NCBI GenBank assembly: GCA_029392475.1
Contig: CP113940.1
Location: forward strand, 1-64,000
Direction: 5' to 3'
Length of the DNA: 64,000 bases
Origin: Streptococcaceae bacterium ESL0687
Lineage (GTDB): Bacteria > Bacillota > Bacilli > Lactobacillales > Streptococcaceae
Positions 4,301 to 59,797 of the stretch are shown here, piece after piece. The translations under genes and the position numbers were made by a program. The notes below the pieces were generated by a model. It did not search any database. It was not told the DNA's origin and worked only from the letters and a program-made list of their open reading frames with translations. The first letter of the stretch is position 1. Each line of letters starts with the position of its first letter.

Positions 4301-4706
4301 TCAAAATCCAGAGTTTAGTCTAAAAGATTTACCGAGTCTTGATGATCTTCCAGGCAAACTTCTCAAGGAAATGTCCTACAAGGGAATTTTTAATGGTGAC
4401 GATCTTCCTTACTTAAGAGATACAAAACTATATGATATTGGTAGAAATAACTATTTTTCTAAGCAGGAAATTGATGATTTAATCGCCCACAATGAGATTC
4501 TTTATAGGAGAGCAGCCGGTAGTTTACTGGACGGTGAGCTTGAAATAAATCCAGTTGCTGAGAAAAGTAAGGTTTTAGGCTGTGAATATTGCAATTTGAA
4601 GGCGATTTGTAAATTTGAACCAAATATTCATATGAATTACACCAGACAGGTTGGCAAGCAATCAAGGGAAGAGATATTTAAGGAGATTTCAGATGACAGA
4701 GCTTAA
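1386..4706 (+). CDS. rexB: ATP-dependent nuclease subunit B (RexB/AddB)
   Basis: Subunit of the RexAB (AddAB) helicase-nuclease that resects double-strand breaks and feeds recombination. 1106 residues, close to lactococcal RexB. The C-terminal nuclease domain shows the GKIDRID and IIDYKSG motifs (about residues 918-935). Cysteines 780, 1066, 1069 and 1075 match the C...C-x2-C-x5-C iron-sulfur staple of AddB. The ATG at 1386 follows GAGGT; an in-frame start 18 bases upstream lies in the dnaN terminator and has no ribosome site. It overlaps rexA by 14 bases, so the two are translationally coupled. Confidence 0.95.
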   Translation: MKIIYTDIYNDLTGELIRRAKKVMSEGKKVFYLVPSSLSFEKEKEILKAFSEGQDTALFDLTVSRFKQLPWYFSKSSIDEDKIELTKVGKTMLFKKVIKSFSKKELPLYFSMNSNASFLDSLVDLHQEMEKSNLTSQDLLSSQDDEKIRELAKIIDCFNLELAEKYANYSKLDSFIDDLVNDKFTKNLQDLVVIVDGYSRFSAEEERLISVLSQKVSSLIIGTYSSKEAFTSNYLQGSVYQNSVEMMLRFKHHFAAEVEYFVNTDVNPIFTQISKAWENENDPTSTKSFNLDLGKLETERVKVWQAVNQKEEIEYAAKEIRQLVSKGVRYKDIEVLVGDADNYQIKLEQIFSMYEIPIFYSKEELMRDHPLITLIENIIRLKRYNYSLNDVINLLKAQIYFPIAYNLDDVYDFEFYLAANNINGRKNYLNDFTGILADEDLSRVNELREGLFGENSPLQKITTYNRRKLAKNVIKDFKDFLKDASVIQIMDRLYTEAEDNNDFATANRHQQVWDLMLLSIEEFSEVFEGQKLTMEEFLELLYSGLAAATYRGIPANVDVVKVRDYELVEPRSSKYVYVLGLSQNNFPKSKSNTTLLSDDDRLKINESLKSNDQSGENVSKFVDQLSQTSSAKNIYNALSLFNAATERLILSYPQVYDSSQEDFSPYLKFLVDKGIELQVKSGISLASGLEEIGNYPGLLANIGKLERLMQDESSLKDSSTRLAFWRSLTRILKNNPQYNKIIEGAKDDIKPSKISKDVLDTFYKDKIYASVSSFENFYNCQYKYFINNTLLLKELETLSLDSRISGNYFHEVFERLMLIGPSSENFDKNLKASLKDVYSERNYRYYFQNETGKYLYQNLIDIIEQTSTMLLNVVNEGNISPEKFEETFGFPQSELTDYSVKIDERHDLKLRGKIDRIDKISDKIGIIDYKSGNLFFDLNKAFSGQSLQFMTYLDILRRNYSKDIWGASYLRLQNPEFSLKDLPSLDDLPGKLLKEMSYKGIFNGDDLPYLRDTKLYDIGRNNYFSKQEIDDLIAHNEILYRRAAGSLLDGELEINPVAEKSKVLGCEYCNLKAICKFEPNIHMNYTRQVGKQSREEIFKEISDDRA

Positions 4707-9780: not shown

Positions 9781-9810
9781 AAAGAGGTTTACATTTATGT
9801 AAACCTCTTT
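9781..9810 (+). terminator. Inverted repeat, probable terminator after ychF
   Basis: A 13-bp perfect stem (9781-9793 with 9798-9810), loop TTTA, stem ending in CTCTTT but without a long T run, so termination may be partial and read into pth. Confidence 0.6.
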
Positions 9811-9831
9811 GTAAATATACAGGAGAAAATT

Positions 9832-13927: not shown

Positions 13928-15400
13928 ATGTCCAAAAAGATTAAAGGGGTAAACATTTTAATTATTTCTAGTTTGATAGGAAAAATACTGTCTGCCCTCT
14001 ATCGTTTTCCCTACCAAAATATAGTGGGGGATTTGGGTTTTTACGCCTATCAACAGGTTTATCCATTCTATGCCATTGTGACCTGCCTTAGTCTTACAGC
14101 TCTGCCTAATTTCCTATCAAGTTTACTCAATACGTCAGAAAAGCCTGATGAGGTAAGGGGGCAATTCTTTCAGGTGACACTTTTTCTTTCAGTTACAGCC
14201 TTTGTAGTCCTATCTCTTTTTTCTCTACCTTTGGCCAAGGCCATGGGGACAAAAGATTTAGCAGGACCTTTAATTTCATCAGTTCTGCCCTTGTTGTTAG
14301 TACCTTTTCTATCCCTTTACAGGGGTGTAAATCAGAGTAAACTTGACATGCAGACAACAGCTATTTCTCAGTTACTTGAGCAGCTTGTAAGGGTGTCAAT
14401 GATAATTTTGGCTGCCACAAGTTTTATTAGTTTCAATAAGGATGTTTATCTGGTAAGTTCGCTTGCCATGCTAGGTAGTTTCTTTGCTGGCCTAGTTGCC
14501 TTGTCATATCTGATGTTAAAATCAAACCTAGAGATTAAAACTTTATTCAATTCCTTTTGGAAGATTAGTGATAAAGTAAAAATCATTAGGGAATTTGGTC
14601 TATCATCGCTAGTCTTTGTCTTTTTCATGATTTATATGTTAATTTTTCAATTAATCGACGTATTTACTGTTAAAGATAGTTTAGTTGCTAGTGGCTATAG
14701 TAGTAGTCAAGCGGAGATTTTAAAGGGAATTTACGACCGGGGGCAACCTTTTTTACAGCTTGGATTGGTCTTTGTTACCTCGATTTTTACCAATGCCCTG
14801 CCTAAACTTAGTTTAAAAAAAGATGATAATTATCTTAAAACCATATTTGACCTGGTTATTTACCTGTCCATAACTTTAACTGTGGGCTTGTGTCTTCTTT
14901 TACCTCAAATGAATGTGGTTTTATTTAAGAGTAATAGTCAGTCTGAGGCCTTGATTATTTTTTCAAGCCAGGTTGCTCTTGTTGGGATTATTCAATTCTA
15001 CCACCATCTTTTATTTCTTGAAGGAAAAAACAAGGTATCAGCCTTGGTTCTTCTCATAGGTTTGGTTGTTAAATTAGGCTTAACCTCTCCTCTTACAAAA
15101 AGTTTTGGCCTAAGCGGAGCAAGTTCTTCAAGTTTTATTAGCTTGCTGTTAGTCCTGGTTCTTTATATTTTGATTAGCCGTAAGTTTCCTAAGCAGCTAT
15201 TTAATTTTAAATACTTGATATCTCTAGCTTTAATGGTCCTTGTTATCTACTTTGGTTCAGAAATGTTTCACGTGGAACATCGACTTTTACAAGCCCTTAA
15301 AGTCCTCTTAATAATTACTGGATCAGCCCTCGTCTTTTTAATTTCTTGTAAAAAACTTAAGGCCTTTCCAAAAAGTTTGTGGGATGAAATAAATCTTTAA
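13928..15400 (+). CDS. MurJ/YabM-like polysaccharide flippase (MOP superfamily)
   Basis: A 490-residue membrane protein with about 12-14 hydrophobic segments. The N-terminus KIKGVNILIISSLIGKILSA is typical of oligosaccharide flippases of the MOP (MATE/MurJ) superfamily. It occupies the position of B. subtilis yabM, between mfd and rqcP. It starts directly after the mfd stop and has GAGGAGG upstream, so it is coupled to mfd. The cargo (lipid II or another lipid-linked glycan) cannot be told from the sequence. A parS site lies inside its 3' end. Confidence 0.85.
   Translation: MSKKIKGVNILIISSLIGKILSALYRFPYQNIVGDLGFYAYQQVYPFYAIVTCLSLTALPNFLSSLLNTSEKPDEVRGQFFQVTLFLSVTAFVVLSLFSLPLAKAMGTKDLAGPLISSVLPLLLVPFLSLYRGVNQSKLDMQTTAISQLLEQLVRVSMIILAATSFISFNKDVYLVSSLAMLGSFFAGLVALSYLMLKSNLEIKTLFNSFWKISDKVKIIREFGLSSLVFVFFMIYMLIFQLIDVFTVKDSLVASGYSSSQAEILKGIYDRGQPFLQLGLVFVTSIFTNALPKLSLKKDDNYLKTIFDLVIYLSITLTVGLCLLLPQMNVVLFKSNSQSEALIIFSSQVALVGIIQFYHHLLFLEGKNKVSALVLLIGLVVKLGLTSPLTKSFGLSGASSSSFISLLLVLVLYILISRKFPKQLFNFKYLISLALMVLVIYFGSEMFHVEHRLLQALKVLLIITGSALVFLISCKKLKAFPKSLWDEINL
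15264..15279. other. parS site (ParB binding)
   Basis: TGTTTCACGTGGAACA is the exact reverse complement of TGTTCCACGTGAAACA, a canonical Firmicute parS. It lies inside the flippase gene, about 15 kb from the origin, where ParB sites that organise the chromosome origin are expected. Confidence 0.88.
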
Positions 15401-15437: not shown

Positions 15438-15446
15438 TGTTATAAT
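15438..15446 (+). promoter_or_regulatory. Extended -10 promoter of rqcP
   Basis: TGTTATAAT, a perfect extended -10 (TGnTATAAT) with TATAAT at 15441-15446. A weak TTTAAA-type -35 lies 17 bases or so upstream. The expected transcription start is the A of the rqcP ATG at 15453. Confidence 0.75.
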
Positions 15447-15452
15447 CTAGTC

Positions 15453-15737
15453 ATGAGATTAGATAAATTTTTAAAAGTAAGTAGACTTATCAAAAGACGT
15501 ACCGTCGCTAAAGAAGTCGCTGATAAGGGAAGAATAAAACTTAATGGTGTATTGGCTAAAAGTTCAAGTACTGTGAAGTACGGAGACCTTCTAACAATCC
15601 AATTTGGAAATAAAATTGTTGAAGTACGTGTACTGGAAACAAAAGATAGTACTAAAAAAGAAGATGCAAGTAAAATGTATGAGTTGATTAGCGAGAAGAG
15701 GTTGAATCAAGATGACCAAGAAAAAGAAGGTTGTTAG
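15453..15737 (+). CDS. rqcP: S4-domain protein RqcP (YabO/Hsp15 family)
   Basis: A 94-residue S4 RNA-binding protein ([32 protein letters not shown]). RqcP acts with RqcH in alanine tailing of nascent chains on split 50S ribosomes. The gene order flippase-rqcP-divIC matches B. subtilis yabM-yabN-yabO-divIC. The ATG at 15453 is preceded by TATAATCTAGTC with no Shine-Dalgarno sequence, which suggests a leaderless transcript. A TTG 18 bases upstream is in frame but would overlap the promoter. Its 3' end overlaps divIC by 26 bases. Confidence 0.92.
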
Positions 15738-16459: not shown

Positions 16460-17755
16460 TTGAAAAAAACAAAATATTTATTGGTTTTTACCTCTCTTTT
16501 GACTTTGGGAATTGGGACATATACTTACAATAAACTCAAGGAAAAAGAGGCAGCGGCAACTGAGATTAGTAGTGATTTAGATAAGTACTACCAATTAATG
16601 CCAAAGCATGCAAGTGTCTTTACAGATACTTGGACATACATTGACAAGGAATTGACAGTTAAAAGTAGAATGATTGAAGCTTTTACTAATTTGAAAATAA
16701 AATCCTTGATTGAATCAAGCTCTGGAATAATGCTCTTTCAAATGGAGGATAATTCTTATGTACCAGCTTTGAAATCCTTGATTCATACTACTGAAATAGC
16801 CTATAAAAAAACAATTGATGAAATAAAAACTGTAAAATCATCGACTAGAAGCTATAAACTACCCCAGGAAAATTTAAATATTATTTACAACTATGTAAAT
16901 GAAGGTGTAAATTTATCTTTACAGGATGAAATTGAAATTGACGGGCAGATTTTTGTGTCTTTTGAAAATCAGGGTGAACTTACCTGGATAAAAAAAGACC
17001 AATTAACCGATTTGAATCCTTCCTATGAAAAAATTCAAAGGTTATTAAATGACAATTATAATAGTGATAACTTTTCCATTTACATTCAGGATTTGGCCTC
17101 TGAAGAAAGTGCCTCTATAAATCCTGATTCCCTGATGTACTCAGCCAGTCTAGCCAAACTTCCTATTTTATATTGGGTCCAAAAACAAATTCTGGCTGGT
17201 CTGGATCCTAATCAGTCCTATAAGTATATTGATGCTGTAAATAATGGCAGTTTTGCCTTTCAACCTGCAGGGAGTGGCGTCTTGAGTAAAGAGGCTGACA
17301 ATAAGGATTATAAATTATCCGATCTTATTTCCTATACTGGGAAACATTCTGATAATGTTGCAAGTAATCTACTGGCCTATTATTTGTGCGAAACTGATAG
17401 GGAAGCATTTGATGCAGATATTAGTCAACTGGCTGGTCGAAAATGGAATTTAGTGGATCGACTGGCCTCAAGCAGGATGTCAGCTAGGTTGATGGTAGAG
17501 TTACACAAGCTTAATGGACAAAGTTATCAGGCTTTAAAAAATACTGATTTTGATAATCAAAGAATTTGCAAATATCTACCTGGTGATTTAGAAGTTGCCC
17601 ATAAAATTGGTGAAGCATATGATTTTCATCATGATGTGGCTATAGTTGAAAGTTCAAGACCTTATGTAATAAGTATTGAAACCCAAAATGATGTGGATAT
17701 TGAACTAATCAGTAGGCTATCAAAAGAAGTGTACGATATTTTGAAGGAGGGTTAG
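16460..17755 (+). CDS. Membrane-anchored class A beta-lactamase-like serine hydrolase
   Basis: A 431-residue extracytoplasmic protein with an N-terminal membrane anchor (YLLVFTSLLTLGIGTYTY). The C-terminal half carries the serine-hydrolase motifs of class A beta-lactamases: Ser230-Leu-Ala-Lys233 (SxxK), Ser297-Asp-Asn (SDN) and Lys382-Ile-Gly (KTG-like). The same kind of gene lies between divIC and tilS in streptococci, so a cell-wall role is more likely than drug resistance. It starts with TTG, preceded by GAGGA at 16449-16453. Confidence 0.85.
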   Translation: MKKTKYLLVFTSLLTLGIGTYTYNKLKEKEAAATEISSDLDKYYQLMPKHASVFTDTWTYIDKELTVKSRMIEAFTNLKIKSLIESSSGIMLFQMEDNSYVPALKSLIHTTEIAYKKTIDEIKTVKSSTRSYKLPQENLNIIYNYVNEGVNLSLQDEIEIDGQIFVSFENQGELTWIKKDQLTDLNPSYEKIQRLLNDNYNSDNFSIYIQDLASEESASINPDSLMYSASLAKLPILYWVQKQILAGLDPNQSYKYIDAVNNGSFAFQPAGSGVLSKEADNKDYKLSDLISYTGKHSDNVASNLLAYYLCETDREAFDADISQLAGRKWNLVDRLASSRMSARLMVELHKLNGQSYQALKNTDFDNQRICKYLPGDLEVAHKIGEAYDFHHDVAIVESSRPYVISIETQNDVDIELISRLSKEVYDILKEG

Positions 17756-25112: not shown

Positions 25113-26867
25113 TTACTCTTTATCTAGATCAATTGACAGGCTAAGCTCTTCAAGTTGTTTTGGTGCAACAAGACTTGGTGCTTCGGTCATTGGATCACTT
25201 GCCTTATTATTTTTAGGGAAGGCAATTACTTCACGAATATTATCTTTTTTGGCAAGAAGCATAGCTAGGCGGTCAAGTCCAAGAGCCAGTCCTCCGTGTG
25301 GTGGAAATCCGTATTCAAGAGCTTCCAGAAGGAATCCAAATTGATCATTGGCATCTTCTTGGCTAAAGCCTAGGGCCTTGAACATTTTTTCCTGAAGTTC
25401 ACGGGTATTGATACGCAGACTTCCTCCCCCTAGCTCGTAACCGTTAAGAACCACGTCATAGGCTACGGCACGTACTTTTTGCAAATCGTCACCTTCAAGG
25501 AATTCTTCAGTTTCCTTAGTTGGAAGAGTGAATGGGTGATGAGCTGACATGTAGCGGCCCTCTTCTTCGCTGTATTCAAACATTGGCCAGTCGATTACCC
25601 AAAGGAAGTTGAACTTGTCAGTGTCGATTAAATCAAGCTCTTTAGCCAGACGACCACGTAAAGCACCAAGAGTGTTATTGGCAACTTCTAACTCATCAGC
25701 AACAAAGAGGATCAGGTCTCCATCTTCAGCTGAAAGTGTTTGAAGAAGGGCTTCAGTCTTGTCTGTTAGGAATTTAGCAACGGGTCCTGTTAGTTCACTA
25801 CCATCAACCTTAATCCAGGCAAGTCCTTTGGCACCAAATTGTTTGGCAAAGTCAGTAAGCTTGTCGATGTCCTTACGAGAGTACTTGTCAGCTGCACCTT
25901 TAGCAACGATTGCCTTAACGGCAGGGGCTTCTGAGAAGACCTTGAAGTCAACTGTTTTAGCAAGGTCAGACAGGTCTTGCAGCTTCATTTCAAAACGAGT
26001 ATCAGGCTTGTCGCTTCCGTAGAAGTTCATAGCATCATCATAGCTCATGCGCGGGAATGGCAGTTGCACGTCGATATTCAGTGCTTCCTTCATAACCTTA
26101 GCAAGAAGTCCCTCTGTTAGGTCTTGGATATCTTGTTCATTAAGAAATGATGTTTCAAGATCGACCTGGGTGAATTCAGGCTGACGGTCTCCACGAAGGT
26201 CTTCGTCACGGAAACATTTAACGATTTGGTAGTAGCGGTCAAATCCAGCATTCATTAGAAGCTGTTTAGTAATTTGAGGGCTTTGTGGGAGGGCATAGAA
26301 GTGTCCCTCAGACACACGGCTTGGTACCAGGTAGTCACGGGCTCCTTCAGGTGTTGACTTGGTTAGGACTGGTGTTTCCACGTCGATGAAGTCAAGATCG
26401 TCCAGGTAGTGGCGGATTGATTTAGTGATCTGGTGGCGCAGTTTGAAGTTGTTAAGCATTTCAGGACGGCGCAGATCCAGGTAACGGTAACGAAGACGAG
26501 TTTCGTCACTGGCCTTCATGTCGTCGGTGATTTCAAATGGAGTAGTTTTGGCAGTGTTTAGGATAGCAAGTTTTTCAACAGCAAGCTCTACTTCCCCAGT
26601 AGCTACCTTGTCATTTGCAGAAGCACGGCGGACAACTTCACCTGTAACCTCAATAACATACTCATTGCGAAGTGACTCAGCGGTTTCCATAACTTCAGGT
26701 GCCACGTGTTCTGGGTTGATTACAAGCTGCATAATCCCCTCACGGTCACGGAGGTCGATAAAGATTAGCCCACCAAGGTCACGGCGGCGGCCAACCCATC
26801 CTTTAAGGGTGATTGTTTCACCAACATTTGCGCTGCGTACTTCACCAGCATACATCGTTCTTTTCAT
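25113..26867 (-). CDS. aspS: Aspartyl-tRNA synthetase
   Basis: Charges tRNA-Asp. 584 residues: N-terminal OB-fold anticodon-binding domain ([21 protein letters not shown]), class II catalytic core with motif 2 ([16 protein letters not shown]) and motif 3 (GLALGLDRL), and the bacterial GAD insertion. Its start overlaps the hisS stop by one base (TAATG), so hisS and aspS are translationally coupled and share the upstream T-box. Confidence 0.97.
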
Positions 26868-33026: not shown

Positions 33027-33042
33027 CTTACATTTTTGTAAG
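33027..33042. promoter_or_regulatory. Dyad upstream of the dlt promoter
   Basis: CTTACA-TTTT-TGTAAG, a perfect 6-bp dyad ending 21 bases before the dltX -10, so it covers the place of a -35 box. It may be an operator; no regulator is known from this window. Confidence 0.4.
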
Positions 33043-33060
33043 TATGAATTTTTTCCAATG

Positions 33061-33069
33061 TGATATAAT
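33061..33069 (+). promoter_or_regulatory. Extended -10 promoter of the dlt operon
   Basis: TGATATAAT (TATAAT at 33064-33069), a perfect extended -10. The ATG of dltX starts at 33076, exactly where transcription should begin. Confidence 0.75.
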
Positions 33070-33075
33070 AGAGAC

Positions 33076-33225
33076 ATGAAAAAAATACAGACATTTTTTA
33101 CTGGCAACCGTATTGCTAATTTTACGGCTAGGACAGTACTATATTTTGTTATCCTTGTAGGATTACTCTATCTATACCACTATTCGGGAATAGGCCAGGG
33201 TGGCTTCTTGTATAATGAATTTTAG
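33076..33225 (+). CDS. dltX: Teichoic acid D-Ala incorporation-associated protein DltX
   Basis: A 49-residue protein with one membrane segment (VLYFVILVGLLYLYHY) and the conserved DltX C-terminus GGFLYNEF. DltX relays D-alanine with DltB and DltD across the membrane; the C-terminal motif is essential in studied species. The stop codon TAG is part of the AGGAGGAGG ribosome site of dltA. No Shine-Dalgarno precedes its own ATG, which follows the -10 box by 6 bases. It is easily missed because of its size. Confidence 0.92.
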   Translation: MKKIQTFFTGNRIANFTARTVLYFVILVGLLYLYHYSGIGQGGFLYNEF

Positions 33226-33237
33226 GAGGAGGTAACT

Positions 33238-34707
33238 ATGATAGATAATATGATTAAAACTATTGATGGTCATGATGCAGGAAGTCCTGTTTACGATTAT
33301 TTAGGGCAAGTATATAGCTATGGTGATTTGAAAGAGAAATCTGACCAACTTGCTGACTATTTACTTAAACAAGATCTACCTAAAGAAGCTCCAATCATGG
33401 TTTACGGTGGTCATCAATTTGACATGCTAGTAGCCTTTTTGGCTTCAGTTAAATCAGGACATGCTTATATTCCAGTTGATGTAAACTCGTCAATTGAACG
33501 AATCGAAGGAATCATTGAGATTGCAAGTCCTGCAGCCCTTATTCCTGTAAACGAACTTCCACTTGAAGTTGACATTCCAGTCATTGAATTAACTGAAGGG
33601 ATCTTTACAGGTCAACCTGTAATTGACCCTGTAAACTTTGTTAGTGGGGACGAAAACTACTACATCATCTTTACAAGTGGTACAACAGGTAAACCAAAGG
33701 GTGTGCAGATCAGTCACAACAATCTTTTAAGCTTTACAAACTGGATGCTTGCTGATTTTAATTTACCTGAAAAACCAGTAACCTTGGCTCAGCCACCATA
33801 TTCTTTCGATTTATCGGTTATGGACTGGGCACCAACTTTAGCCTTAGGAGGAGTTTTAAAGGCTCTTCCTAAAGAAGTGGCTGATGATTTTGCTCAATTC
33901 TTTGCGGTTCTTCCTAAGATGAATTTACAGGTTTGGGTGTCAACTCCGTCCTTCTCTGAGATTGCCATGCTTTCGCCAGAGTTTAACCAGGACAATTACC
34001 CAGACCTTAAGCATTTCCTTTTCTGTGGTGAGGAGCTGACTGTTGGTACAGCTAAAAAGCTTAAGGAACGTTTCCCTCAAGCACAAATTTTTAATACCTA
34101 CGGGCCAACTGAGGCAACTGTAGCCATTACTGAGATTGAAATTACAAGTGATATCATTGAATCAAGTGAGCGCCTACCTATCGGTCGTGTTAAACCTGAT
34201 ACTAAGATCCACATCGTTGACGGAGAAATCGTCATTGCAGGACCTGGAGTTTCAAAAGGCTATATGAATAACCCAGAGAAAACAGACGAAGCCTTTTATG
34301 AAATTGACGGGGTTCCAGCTTATAAAACTGGAGATTTAGGTAAATTTGATGAAAATGGCATCCTCCACTACGGAGGTCGCAAGGACTTCCAAATCAAGCT
34401 CCACGGTTACCGGATTGAGCTTGAAGAGGTGAACCACTTCCTTAACCTATCAAAATATGTTAAGTCAGGTGTAGCTGTTCCTAAATACGGAGCTGACCAC
34501 AAGGTTCAAGCCATGATTGCTTATGTGGTTCCTGAGGAAAACGATTTTGAAAAAAATATTGAACTAACAAATGCCATTAAGGCTGAGCTTAATGATATGA
34601 TGATGCCTTATATGGTTCCAAGTCGTTTCAAGTATGTAGACAGCCTGCCAATCTCACCAAATGGTAAGATTGATCTTAAGGCTGTAATTGCTGAGGTGAA
34701 CAAGTAA
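33238..34707 (+). CDS. dltA: D-alanine--poly(phosphoribitol) ligase subunit 1 (DltA)
   Basis: Adenylates D-alanine and loads it onto the DltC carrier. 489 residues of the ANL superfamily, with the ATP-binding loop FTSGTTGKPKG (near residue 142), NTYGPTEAT, and KTGDLG, then a C-terminal domain ending in the catalytic lysine motif PNGKIDLK. It has a very strong ribosome site (AGGAGGAGG) and a stop that overlaps dltB by one base. Confidence 0.97.
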   Translation: MIDNMIKTIDGHDAGSPVYDYLGQVYSYGDLKEKSDQLADYLLKQDLPKEAPIMVYGGHQFDMLVAFLASVKSGHAYIPVDVNSSIERIEGIIEIASPAALIPVNELPLEVDIPVIELTEGIFTGQPVIDPVNFVSGDENYYIIFTSGTTGKPKGVQISHNNLLSFTNWMLADFNLPEKPVTLAQPPYSFDLSVMDWAPTLALGGVLKALPKEVADDFAQFFAVLPKMNLQVWVSTPSFSEIAMLSPEFNQDNYPDLKHFLFCGEELTVGTAKKLKERFPQAQIFNTYGPTEATVAITEIEITSDIIESSERLPIGRVKPDTKIHIVDGEIVIAGPGVSKGYMNNPEKTDEAFYEIDGVPAYKTGDLGKFDENGILHYGGRKDFQIKLHGYRIELEEVNHFLNLSKYVKSGVAVPKYGADHKVQAMIAYVVPEENDFEKNIELTNAIKAELNDMMMPYMVPSRFKYVDSLPISPNGKIDLKAVIAEVNK

Positions 34708-35921
34708 TGCTTGACTTTTTACATAAGATACCGAATCTCGATGCTTATGGGAATCCACAATACTTTTTCTACCTAGCCATTGCCCTTATCCCAGTAGCAG
34801 TTGGAATTTACCGCCAGAGGAGATTTCACGTCTACGAGGCCTTGGTACAATTTGTTTTTATCTTCCTTATGTTCACAGGAGGAAAAGTTGATCAAGGTTT
34901 GGCCCTTCTTGCCTACATTGCTTGGGAGTTTGTAGTTGTTGGATCTTATCTGACCTACAGGAAGAATTCAAATAATACTCTTGTATTTTATCTGATGACC
35001 TTCCTATCGATTCTTCCCCTTGTAATTGTTAAGGTTTCACCTGCTCTTTTAGGTCACAATTCCCTTTTAGGTTTTATTGGGATAAGCTATTTGACCTTTA
35101 GGTCGACTGGGATGGTTATGACGGCAAGAGACGGTGTGATATCAGGTTTTAATCCGTGGATGTTCTTTAAATTCGTCCTATTTATGCCGACCTTTACAAG
35201 TGGGCCAATTGACCGTTATGAGCGTTTTGAAAAGGACTATGACAATTTGCCAAGCCAAGATGAGTATTTGGATATGATTCAAAAAGCTGTCTGGTATATC
35301 ATGGTTGGTTTCCTGTTTAAATTTATCATCGCTTATATGCTAAAGGATATCGCCATGCCTTATGTTGAGGACCGGGCCTTATCACGCGGTGGCTTGTCTT
35401 GGTCTTTAATGGGATACATGTACGTTTACGGGCTTGATCTCTACTTTGACTTTGCTGGTTATTCCCTATTTGCTGTGGCAATCTCATATATTTTTGGGAT
35501 TAAGTCACCAATGAACTTTAACAGACCCTTTATTTCAAAGAACTTAAAGGATTTCTGGAACAGATGGCACATCAGCCTAAGTTTCTGGTTTAGGGATTTC
35601 GTTTTCATGCGTTTGACCTTTACCTTAATGAAGAAAAAAGTCTTCAAGAGCCGTGTTACTACAGCAAATGTTGCTTACATCCTTAACATGCTTTTAATGG
35701 GATTCTGGCACGGGGTTACCTGGTATTATATAGTGTATGGCCTTTTCCATGGTTTAGGACTTGTTATAAATGATGCTTGGCTCCGTTACAAGAGAAAACA
35801 TAAAAATCAAATTCCACACAATAAATTTACGGAGATTTTTGCAATCTTCTTAACGATTCAGGTGGTGTTTGTAGGATTCTTGATATTCTCAGGATTCCTT
35901 GATAAACTATTTTTTAGATAA
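34707..35921 (+). CDS. dltB: D-alanyl transfer protein DltB (MBOAT family)
   Basis: A 404-residue polytopic membrane O-acyltransferase with about 11 membrane segments and the invariant MBOAT histidine in the motif GFWHGVTWYY (near residue 336). It moves D-alanine from DltC across the membrane. It overlaps the dltA stop (TAATG), so translation is coupled. Confidence 0.96.
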   Translation: MLDFLHKIPNLDAYGNPQYFFYLAIALIPVAVGIYRQRRFHVYEALVQFVFIFLMFTGGKVDQGLALLAYIAWEFVVVGSYLTYRKNSNNTLVFYLMTFLSILPLVIVKVSPALLGHNSLLGFIGISYLTFRSTGMVMTARDGVISGFNPWMFFKFVLFMPTFTSGPIDRYERFEKDYDNLPSQDEYLDMIQKAVWYIMVGFLFKFIIAYMLKDIAMPYVEDRALSRGGLSWSLMGYMYVYGLDLYFDFAGYSLFAVAISYIFGIKSPMNFNRPFISKNLKDFWNRWHISLSFWFRDFVFMRLTFTLMKKKVFKSRVTTANVAYILNMLLMGFWHGVTWYYIVYGLFHGLGLVINDAWLRYKRKHKNQIPHNKFTEIFAIFLTIQVVFVGFLIFSGFLDKLFFR

Positions 35922-35944: not shown

Positions 35945-36184
35945 ATGGAAAACGTAAGAGATGGAATTATTGAAATCATGACTGAGGTTTCTGGAGAAGA
36001 TGTAACTTCAATGATGGATGAAAATTTCTACGACAACGGTTTACTTGACTCAATGGCAACAATCGAAGTGCTTATGAGCATTCAAGATGAATTTGGTGTA
36101 ACAATCCCTGTACTTGGATTTGTTCGTGAAGAGTGGGATACACCTAACAAGGTTATCGCAAAAGTTACGGAGATGCTTGGATGA
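35945..36184 (+). CDS. dltC: D-alanyl carrier protein DltC
   Basis: A 79-residue carrier protein with the phosphopantetheine site LLDSMATIEV (Ser near residue 36). AGAGGAAA lies upstream. It overlaps dltD by 4 bases (ATGA). Part of the D-alanylation pathway of lipoteichoic acid. Confidence 0.96.
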   Translation: MENVRDGIIEIMTEVSGEDVTSMMDENFYDNGLLDSMATIEVLMSIQDEFGVTIPVLGFVREEWDTPNKVIAKVTEMLG

Positions 36185-37455
36185 GACTAATAAAACGCCT
36201 GTGGTGGATTTTTGGTCCCTTATTGGTTGCTGCAGGTCTTTTATTTGGTTTACTTGTTTTTACTAACTCTGACGGTGGATTTTCTGAGAAGATTTTAACA
36301 CGTGCGGCATCATCCCTTGAAACACGTATTTTTAAGGGGCGGGCCCACAAGCATGCAGCCTTTACGGACGAGGAAAAAAATTATGTTCCTTTCATGGGTT
36401 CAAGTGAATTAACTCGTTTTGATTCCTTCCACCCCTCAGTTTTAGCTGACAAGTATAAAAGGGATTATACTCCCTTCCTTCTAGGATATATGGGAACCCA
36501 ATCTTTTGCCCAGTATTCTGCTATGCAACCAATAATTAAGGATTTAGCCGGTAAGAAGGTTGTCTTTAGTATTAGCCCTCAATGGTTTGATCCTAAAAGT
36601 CAGAGTAAGGCGGCCTTTCAGACCTTCTATTCAAAACTTCAGGGGATATCATTCTTAAATAATGCAACAGATTCACCAGAAGATATCTATGCGGCTAACA
36701 GGTACCTTGAAATGGGTGTTCAAAACGATCGTCTCTTTAAGCAGGTAGCTGACGGAAATCCGCTGTCTGAACTTCAGAAGAAGAAGACAGTCTTTGAACA
36801 AAATCTTTTATCAAATGAGGATTTACTATTCTCTCACTTTGATATGACTGATAATTACGATAAGAAAATTCTTCCAAGAGAGGCTGATCTTCCTGATACC
36901 TATGATTATGCAACCTTAGACCAATTAGCTATCAAAGAAGCCAAGGCTAACACAACAAATAATAATTTTGGAATCAAGAATAGTTTTTACAATGAACGCT
37001 TGAGAGAAAGTATTGGTAAACTTAAAGGTACCCAGGCTAATTTTGATTATACAAAATCAATTGAGTACAATGACTTCCAGTTGGTGCTAAATGAGTTTGC
37101 TAAAAATAATATTGAAGTCCTCTTTGTAATCCCTCCTATTAACCAAAAGTGGATTGATTACACAGGTCTTCGTCCTGAAATGTATCAGGCATCAGTTAAG
37201 AAAATTAAGTACCAACTTGAATCACAAGGATTTAATCATATTGCTGACTTATCTCATGCTGGTGTAAATGAGTACTATATGCAGGACACAATCCACATCG
37301 GTTGGCGTGGTTGGCTTGATCTTGACACTTACATCAATCCATTTTTAACAGGTAATGTTGAAAAATCAACCTATGATATCAACAATACAGAATTCCTTTC
37401 TAAGAATTGGGCTTCGATGGATCCAGCGGACATTACAAATTTTCAGGATAACTAG
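36181..37455 (+). CDS. dltD: D-alanyl-lipoteichoic acid biosynthesis protein DltD
   Basis: A 424-residue extracytoplasmic SGNH-type thioesterase/esterase with one N-terminal membrane anchor (LWWIFGPLLVAAGLLFGLLV). The catalytic serine lies in the FMGSSELTRFD motif near residue 72, and DTIHIGWRGW holds the Asp/His region near residue 370. It transfers D-alanine to teichoic acid with DltX. The start overlaps dltC. Confidence 0.95.
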   Translation: MRLIKRLWWIFGPLLVAAGLLFGLLVFTNSDGGFSEKILTRAASSLETRIFKGRAHKHAAFTDEEKNYVPFMGSSELTRFDSFHPSVLADKYKRDYTPFLLGYMGTQSFAQYSAMQPIIKDLAGKKVVFSISPQWFDPKSQSKAAFQTFYSKLQGISFLNNATDSPEDIYAANRYLEMGVQNDRLFKQVADGNPLSELQKKKTVFEQNLLSNEDLLFSHFDMTDNYDKKILPREADLPDTYDYATLDQLAIKEAKANTTNNNFGIKNSFYNERLRESIGKLKGTQANFDYTKSIEYNDFQLVLNEFAKNNIEVLFVIPPINQKWIDYTGLRPEMYQASVKKIKYQLESQGFNHIADLSHAGVNEYYMQDTIHIGWRGWLDLDTYINPFLTGNVEKSTYDINNTEFLSKNWASMDPADITNFQDN

Positions 37456-41152: not shown

Positions 41153-41186
41153 AAAAAAACTAGCTTTACACTCCTGTAAAGCTAGT
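41153..41186 (-). terminator. Terminator of recO
   Basis: A 12-bp perfect stem (41159-41170 with 41175-41186), CTCC loop, and on the minus strand a T7 run. Confidence 0.85.
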
Positions 41187-49744: not shown

Positions 49745-51055
<1,311 letters not shown>

Positions 51056-59755: not shown

Positions 59756-59797
59756 CTTTACAGATTACTTTACATATTTGTAAATCAACTTGTAAAG
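59756..59797. repeat. Four-element TTTACA/TGTAAA dyad
   Basis: CTTTACA at 59756-59762 and 59768-59774, TGTAAA at 59779-59784 and TGTAAAG at 59791-59797. Inner and outer pairs share the same centre (59776.5). No T run follows, so it is not a standard terminator. Confidence 0.55.

Follow-up and report, generated by a model that had tools for sequence, protein, structure and literature searches.

A predicted leaderless dltX start and a probable BceR-type palindrome in Streptococcaceae bacterium ESL0687

Does the message of the dlt operon, which serves cell-wall charging and has dltX as its first gene, begin in the Floricoccus-like Streptococcaceae bacterium ESL0687 with the first codon of dltX itself? 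The question is raised by an extended -10 element, TGATATAAT, that stands just before the dltX start codon; the initial annotation of this DNA predicted dltX to be leaderless on that ground, pointed to the same spacing at rqcP and took the two cases as signs of a class of leaderless mRNAs. We analysed the window, which is the whole stretch of 64,000 nucleotides to which positions below refer unless another genome is named, together with the 1,465,505 bp genome from which it comes (G000) and other genomes of the family, sorted into genera labelled g1 to g10. The explanation that we favour, with a probability of about 0.8, is that an extended -10 promoter, dependent on an activator and lying under a BceR-type box, drives dltX as a leaderless gene.

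Leaderless mRNAs are reported to make up 9% in Streptococcus pneumoniae (PMC6212727), 8% in S. agalactiae (78 transcripts, 90% of which begin at the A; PMC4448216) and 8.6% in S. pyogenes (67 mRNAs, with 39 common to all three streptococci; PMC6431027), and with an S. pneumoniae pbp2A reporter a leaderless start is described as efficiently translated (PMC6212727, PMC4448216, PMC6431027). The leaderless class itself is already published, and dltX is a genus-specific addition to it. The likeness lies in a start on or next to the AUG, in a share of 8–9% of transcripts and in the many members reported to be common between species; the streptococcal starts were mapped, whereas that of dltX is predicted here from sequence, and dltX is leaderless-like only in g1 among the loci examined. 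Neither dltX nor rqcP is named in the main text of PMC6431027, ‘dlt’ occurs in PMC4448216 solely within the name of the DltR/DltS system, and the accessible part of PMC6212727 has dlt solely in a mutation table. In a search that covered few subscription journals we found no published leaderless dltX. What is new at this locus is the motif CTTACA-N4-TGTAAG, 21 nt upstream of TATAAT at a leaderless-like dltX, which is predicted to form a peptide-response switch.

The dltX start and a genome-wide class of spaced promoters

At dltX and at rqcP alike the -10 ends six bases before the ATG, and the coordinates at both genes agree with what had been annotated (Table 1). The name rqcP is that of the initial annotation for an S4-domain frame, for which NCBIfam gave nothing above cut-off. 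The start codon of dltX is AUG. Its promoter lacks a good -35, the best candidate at a spacing of 16–18 having two of six matches to TTGACA, and no Shine-Dalgarno precedes the ATG, none of GGAG, AGGA or GAGG being found in 33058-33075. The dltX transcript is likely to begin no more than 4 nt from the ATG, and the first codon very probably sits exactly at the transcription start; a start one or two nucleotides earlier would give the mRNA a leader of 1–2 nt. Regulation by a hairpin at the start of the mRNA was considered and set aside, given that the first 60 nt have a z of -1.21 and 21 of 200 shuffles fold equally well.

Table 1. Positions of the features discussed, in the window except where another genome is named
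Feature	Position	Strand	Basis or remark
Extended -10 TGATATAAT	33061..33069	+	direct reading and pattern scan
Six-base stretch AGAGAC	33070..33075	+	direct reading; four-genome comparison: length constant, letters vary
dltX ATG	33076..33078	+	direct reading
Predicted transcription start, A of dltX ATG	33076..33076	+	predicted from -10 distance and pyrimidine of the class
rqcP TGTTATAAT-CTAGTC-ATG	15438..15455	+	comparison case, direct reading: TGTTATAAT 15438-15446, CTAGTC 15447-15452, ATG from 15453
Perfect palindrome CTTACATTTTTGTAAG (CTTACA-TTTT-TGTAAG), predicted BceR-type operator	33027..33042	+	direct reading
dltX, 49 aa	33076..33225	+	PF12459 DltX, E 2.6e-17; Shine-Dalgarno absent from predicted mRNA
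AGGAGGAGG, dltA Shine-Dalgarno overlapping dltX stop	33224..33232	+	direct reading
dltA	33238..34707	+	TIGR01734, 676.7 bits against cut-off 559.85
dltB, MBOAT family	34707..35921	+	PF03062, E 1.4e-16; named by position and domain
dltC, phosphopantetheine carrier	35945..36184	+	PF00550, E 1.9e-7; named by position and domain
dltD	36181..37455	+	PF04914, E 1.2e-117
rqcP (assumed name), S4-domain protein	15453..15737	+	PF01479, E 3.1e-9
TTTACA-N4-TGTAAA sites	9788-9803, 14316-14331, 16884-16899, 41165-41180, 50851-50866, 59769-59784
Half-site arrays	9789-9814, 16885-16910, 59758-59795; G002 11170, 66649; G012 50064, 66783; G020 45015, 58463
parS-like site (TGTTTCACGTGGAACA or TGTTCCACGTGGAACA)	15264-15279; G002 16645; G012 37349; G020 38744

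Exact TGNTATAAT-N6-ATG has two matches in the window, at dltX and rqcP only, against a mean of 0.02 in 100 dinucleotide shuffles. Over both strands of G000 there are 20 such sites, and the reversed control pattern has none. When all distances from 0 to 30 were counted for the four possible TGNTATAAT words (127 rows summed, some -10s being paired with more than one ATG), the 20 sites at spacing 6 compared with a mean of 3.57 at the other spacings; the next-highest counts were 11 at 29 nt and 7 at both 14 and 30 nt, and spacing 7 had four. Many of the rows at 28–30 nt carry an AGGAG-like Shine-Dalgarno, which marks them as ordinary leadered genes. Plain TATAAT-N(0-30)-ATG shows no enrichment there (34 observed in the window, 29.66 expected), so that the signal lies in the exact distance and the TG extension and not in a -10 near an ATG. 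The genome-wide excess on which the annotated class depended is present, with 20 sites at spacing 6 over a background of 3.6 per spacing, and the class has about 20 strict members in this genome, a lower bound because the strict pattern misses weaker -10s. This excess, the zero reversed controls and the retention of the six-base length support the leaderless reading as a prediction. The distance between -10 and ATG thus allows a leaderless start to be proposed with nothing but the sequence in hand.

Frames of at least 49 aa are opened by 18 of the 20 class sites. C or T directly precedes the A of the ATG in 17 of the 20, as a transcription start on that A would lead one to expect, and matches to the -35 TTGACA never rise above four of six at any of the 20. 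Members scoring above NCBIfam cut-offs are TruA, PlsY, BirA, two RlmD-like methyltransferases, YqeH and an ECF ATPase, and Pfam places a class A penicillin-binding protein among the class as well. One locus (L013) was tried as the pneumococcal leaderless pbp2A and rejected: NCBIfam favours PBP1B by 761 to 182 bits, both scores being under their cut-offs and the frame being cut by the locus end, and since it scores higher as PBP1B no orthology with the published pbp2A reporter gene is claimed. The two remaining frames, of 11 and 44 aa (L009 and L016, at G000 906176 and 1294039), may represent RNA genes or short peptides made from leaderless messages; G002 has similar sites at 897857 and 1283787.

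The upstream palindrome and the spread of the arrangement

The palindrome upstream of dltX has its centre at -41.5 if transcription starts at the A of the ATG. Its core, TTACA-TTTT-TGTAA at 33028-33041, fits the consensus quoted for regulators of bceAB-type genes, TNACA-N4-TGTAA with an AT-rich spacer (PMC9020739), and is probably a BceR-type operator. The BceR box reported for S. mutans is TTACAA-N2-TTGTAA (PMC11034029), and a putative BceR box has been detected in the dlt promoter of Lactococcus lactis (PMC7438565); with the published consensus, the latter makes BceR-type control of dlt an expected arrangement, to which this locus adds the geometry and the predicted leaderless start. As in the L. 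lactis prediction, a palindromic or predicted regulator box is reported upstream of dlt for GraR of S. aureus and ApsR/PsdR of L. paracasei, although the GraR operator given for S. aureus, ACAAATTTGT (PMC3128592), is unlike CTTACA-N4-TGTAAG. What sets dltX apart from the BceR, GraR and ApsR cases is a box exactly 21 nt from an extended -10 TATAAT, with the start codon on the predicted start site. S. pneumoniae dltXABCD is reported to be under CiaR (PMC11034029), a two-component control of dlt like the regulator proposed here; CTTACA-N4-TGTAAG was found at none of 27 dltX loci of g4.

The distance of 21 nt between this palindrome and TATAAT is constant in all four g1 genomes. Among 178 loci that had been collected for TTACA-N4-TGTAA, for the leaderless pattern or for dltX or rqcP, and not for the combination of box and TATAAT, 21 matched CTTACA-N4-TGTAAG-N(18-24)-TATAAT; removal of overlapping copies left 13 distinct promoters, all 13 with a gap of 21 nt. 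They comprise dltX in the four g1 genomes and in two g8 genomes (G024 and G051), a GlmU-like gene in g1 (4), an HlyD/ABC/MacB operon (2) and an S41-peptidase-like gene (1). In G024 and G051 the box and gap are the same and the dltX ATG lies 66 and 75 nt further on, giving a leader. The shorter TTACA-N4-TGTAA occurs at 55 sites in the four g1 genomes (14, 11, 17 and 13), every one of which was covered, and 20 of them are C/G-flanked; TATAAT stands at 21 nt in 11 of these and is absent there in nine, so the geometry is not universal to the boxes. G000 has C/G flanks at only two of its 14 sites, those of dltX and the GlmU-like gene, and at each of these TATAAT follows at 21 nt. In G012 the motif CTTACA-N4-TGTAAG also lies upstream of a DUF1093(YxeA)-ABC-FtsX cluster, where TATAAT is not at that distance. 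The GlmU-like gene carries the dltX-type palindrome and 21-nt gap in four of four g1 genomes (L151 1901-1943, L160, L173 and L175; domains were scanned in L151 only), which suggests that cell-wall precursor supply belongs to the dltX-box regulon. We propose that the 21-nt box spacing marks a small envelope-stress regulon in this barely studied genus.

DltX is 80% identical over all 49 residues to its counterparts in two named Floricoccus species, which by contig coordinates are G012 and G020 and belong, like G000, to g1. All four g1 genomes have, in the same order, the palindrome, 18 nt, TGNTATAAT, six nt and the dltX ATG. The six bases differ in their letters (AGAGAC, GAGAGC, GATAGT and AATAGT) and are constant in number in 4/4 genomes, a fixed length with changing letters that looks like selection on distance. 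A further in-frame ATG lies upstream of dltX in G002, within the promoter. Outside g1, exact TATAAT ending 4–9 nt before the dltX start codon was found in none of 46 loci from seven genera (27 from g4, several of them near-duplicates, and 19 from six other genera; dltX loci were drawn from the 165 of 196 genomes with a match). This rules out leaderless dltX as a family-wide trait, and the trait is therefore not essential to dlt. At one g8 locus (L073, in G065, minus strand) dltX has the box and, at 21 nt, TAGAAT ending 8 nt before the ATG; this is possibly a second, independent near-leaderless dltX.

The history of rqcP differs. Among the best 30 of 59 matches, TGNTATAAT stands 6 or 7 nt before the rqcP ATG in 25 loci of four genera: at 6 nt in 12 (g1 4, g2 1, g8 7) and at 7 nt in 13 (g8 2, g9 11). 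Within the same 30, one locus each from g4, g6, g7 and g10 shows a Shine-Dalgarno in its place, and the only g3 locus went unscored; g4 is under-represented because these are the best 30 of 59 matches (57 of 59 genomes). The two cases share the geometry and differ in their histories, rqcP having the arrangement in several genera and dltX, among the loci examined, in one. Strict TGNTATAAT-N6-ATG sites are present in 194 of the 196 genomes of the family, with 0–4 per strand for the reversed control. There are 20–24 strict sites per genome in g1 and tens in g2, g8, g9 and most of g4, and 0–6 in g3, g5, g6, g7 and g10, where some genomes are not above the reversed control.

Mechanism and competing explanations

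If dltX is read in the way that we favour, cationic or envelope-acting peptides would be sensed and a phosphorylated BceR-type response regulator would bind the palindrome beside RNA polymerase, which would start on the A of the dltX start codon, so that the dlt mRNA would be leaderless and begin 5'-AUGAAA. Translation of DltX would follow the leaderless route, an established one that uses a 5'-terminal AUG and the 70S ribosome (discussed in PMC6431027), and dltA would rely on its own strong Shine-Dalgarno. It is a more tentative and rather doubtful extension that the g1 dltX start codon moved onto the start of a BceR-type promoter, with the peptide response yielding a leaderless mRNA and hence a second, translational layer on an envelope-stress operon that is absent in g8 relatives with the same operator; if true, conditions that favour leaderless messages would also favour translation of DltX. 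Two g8 genomes, where dltX is leadered, and Floricoccus, where it is leaderless-like, share the operator, gap and -10 at this gene and form a natural pair, which allows the effect of leader loss on a resistance operon to be measured.

A second promoter further upstream might instead give dltX a normal leader and leave the leaderless start a minor one, as the two start sites reported for S. aureus dlt (PMC3128592) and the g8 box promoters that lie 66 and 75 nt upstream of dltX and give it a leader would lead one to consider; a leadered dltX mRNA would nevertheless be poorly served, as the lack of a Shine-Dalgarno in 33058-33075 indicates, and with the six-base spacing kept in all four genomes we consider this arrangement improbable. 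There is only a very slight probability that a -10 so close to the ATG arose by coincidence in intergenic DNA rich in A and T. Just two sites are visible in the window, where TATAAT within 30 nt of an ATG is close to expectation, but the 20 sites against zero reversed, the peak at six, the conservation in four genomes and the 18 long frames all tell against it, and a chance origin of the spacing is rejected by the shuffles, the reversed control and that peak.

The part played by the palindrome can be doubted on other grounds, for it might be one more member of a TTTACA-N4-TGTAAA family close to the origin, at an incidental distance from the promoter. Seven more TTACA-N4-TGTAA sites lie in the window, and nine of the 20 C/G-flanked g1 boxes are without TATAAT at 21 nt. 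Yet the dltX copy reads CTTACA..TGTAAG in four of four genomes, while T occupies 39 of the 40 flanks of 20 further copies to the right of the origin (a count covering both strands), and the C/G form also stands 21 nt before TATAAT at unlinked loci, the GlmU-like gene and the MacB-like operon; the chance of incidental placement is small in our estimation.

A second palindrome family near the origin

Eight of the 14 TTACA-N4-TGTAA sites of G000 lie within the window, which indicates a second palindrome family in the neighbourhood of dltX, and both flanking bases of the dltX box differ from those of this nearby TTTACA-N4-TGTAAA family. In the four g1 genomes this family is almost wholly restricted to the region right of the replication origin. 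Six of its seven sites in G000 fall in the first 60 kb, and all five in G002 within 67 kb of the start of a 1.45 Mb sequence; G012 and G020 have four sites each, all of them on the same contig as rqcP and dltX (369 kb in G012, 118 kb in G020). Per strand, the reversed control gave 0, 0, 2 and 0 in G000, G002, G012 and G020. When perfect 6-N4-6 inverted repeats were counted with no arm chosen in advance, TTTACA came first in the window (6 of 52, other arms occurring once each) and likewise in the three sister regions, with 5, 4 and 4 copies against 2, 3 and 3 for the next arm, but not in 80 kb to the left of the origin; with 5-bp arms, T runs outnumber TTACA in the regions of G012 and G020. The sites are partly intragenic and partly intergenic, and only some are at matching places in the sister genomes. 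TTTACA-N4-TGTAAA looks like a protein-binding site of the origin domain, here a prediction, with positions that turn over. Many further genomes of the family also have more of it than of the control; of eight other genomes scanned for TTACA-N4-TGTAA, none has a cluster right of the origin. A limited literature search on an origin-proximal palindrome found nothing to the point.

At nine sites a third half-site, TTACA or TGTAA, is present (one has a fourth as well), forming arrays with a 12-bp period; the extra half-site is 7 nt away in nine of nine, though gaps of 5–8 nt were allowed. The parS-like site lies 947 bp after a matching TTACA-N4-TGTAA site in four of four genomes, and in the window both fall within a polysaccharide-synthesis gene at 13928-15400; a gene left of the origin is presumably ParB-like. 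Several g8 genomes also have TTTACA-N4-TGTAAA near rqcP (G029, G036, G017, G039, G042 and G057). In G029 contig C8 the sites are at 4407, 11286 and 13141 and rqcP is at 25678; five g8 genomes have a site about 11.4–11.5 kb from rqcP, and other g8 genomes have theirs elsewhere.
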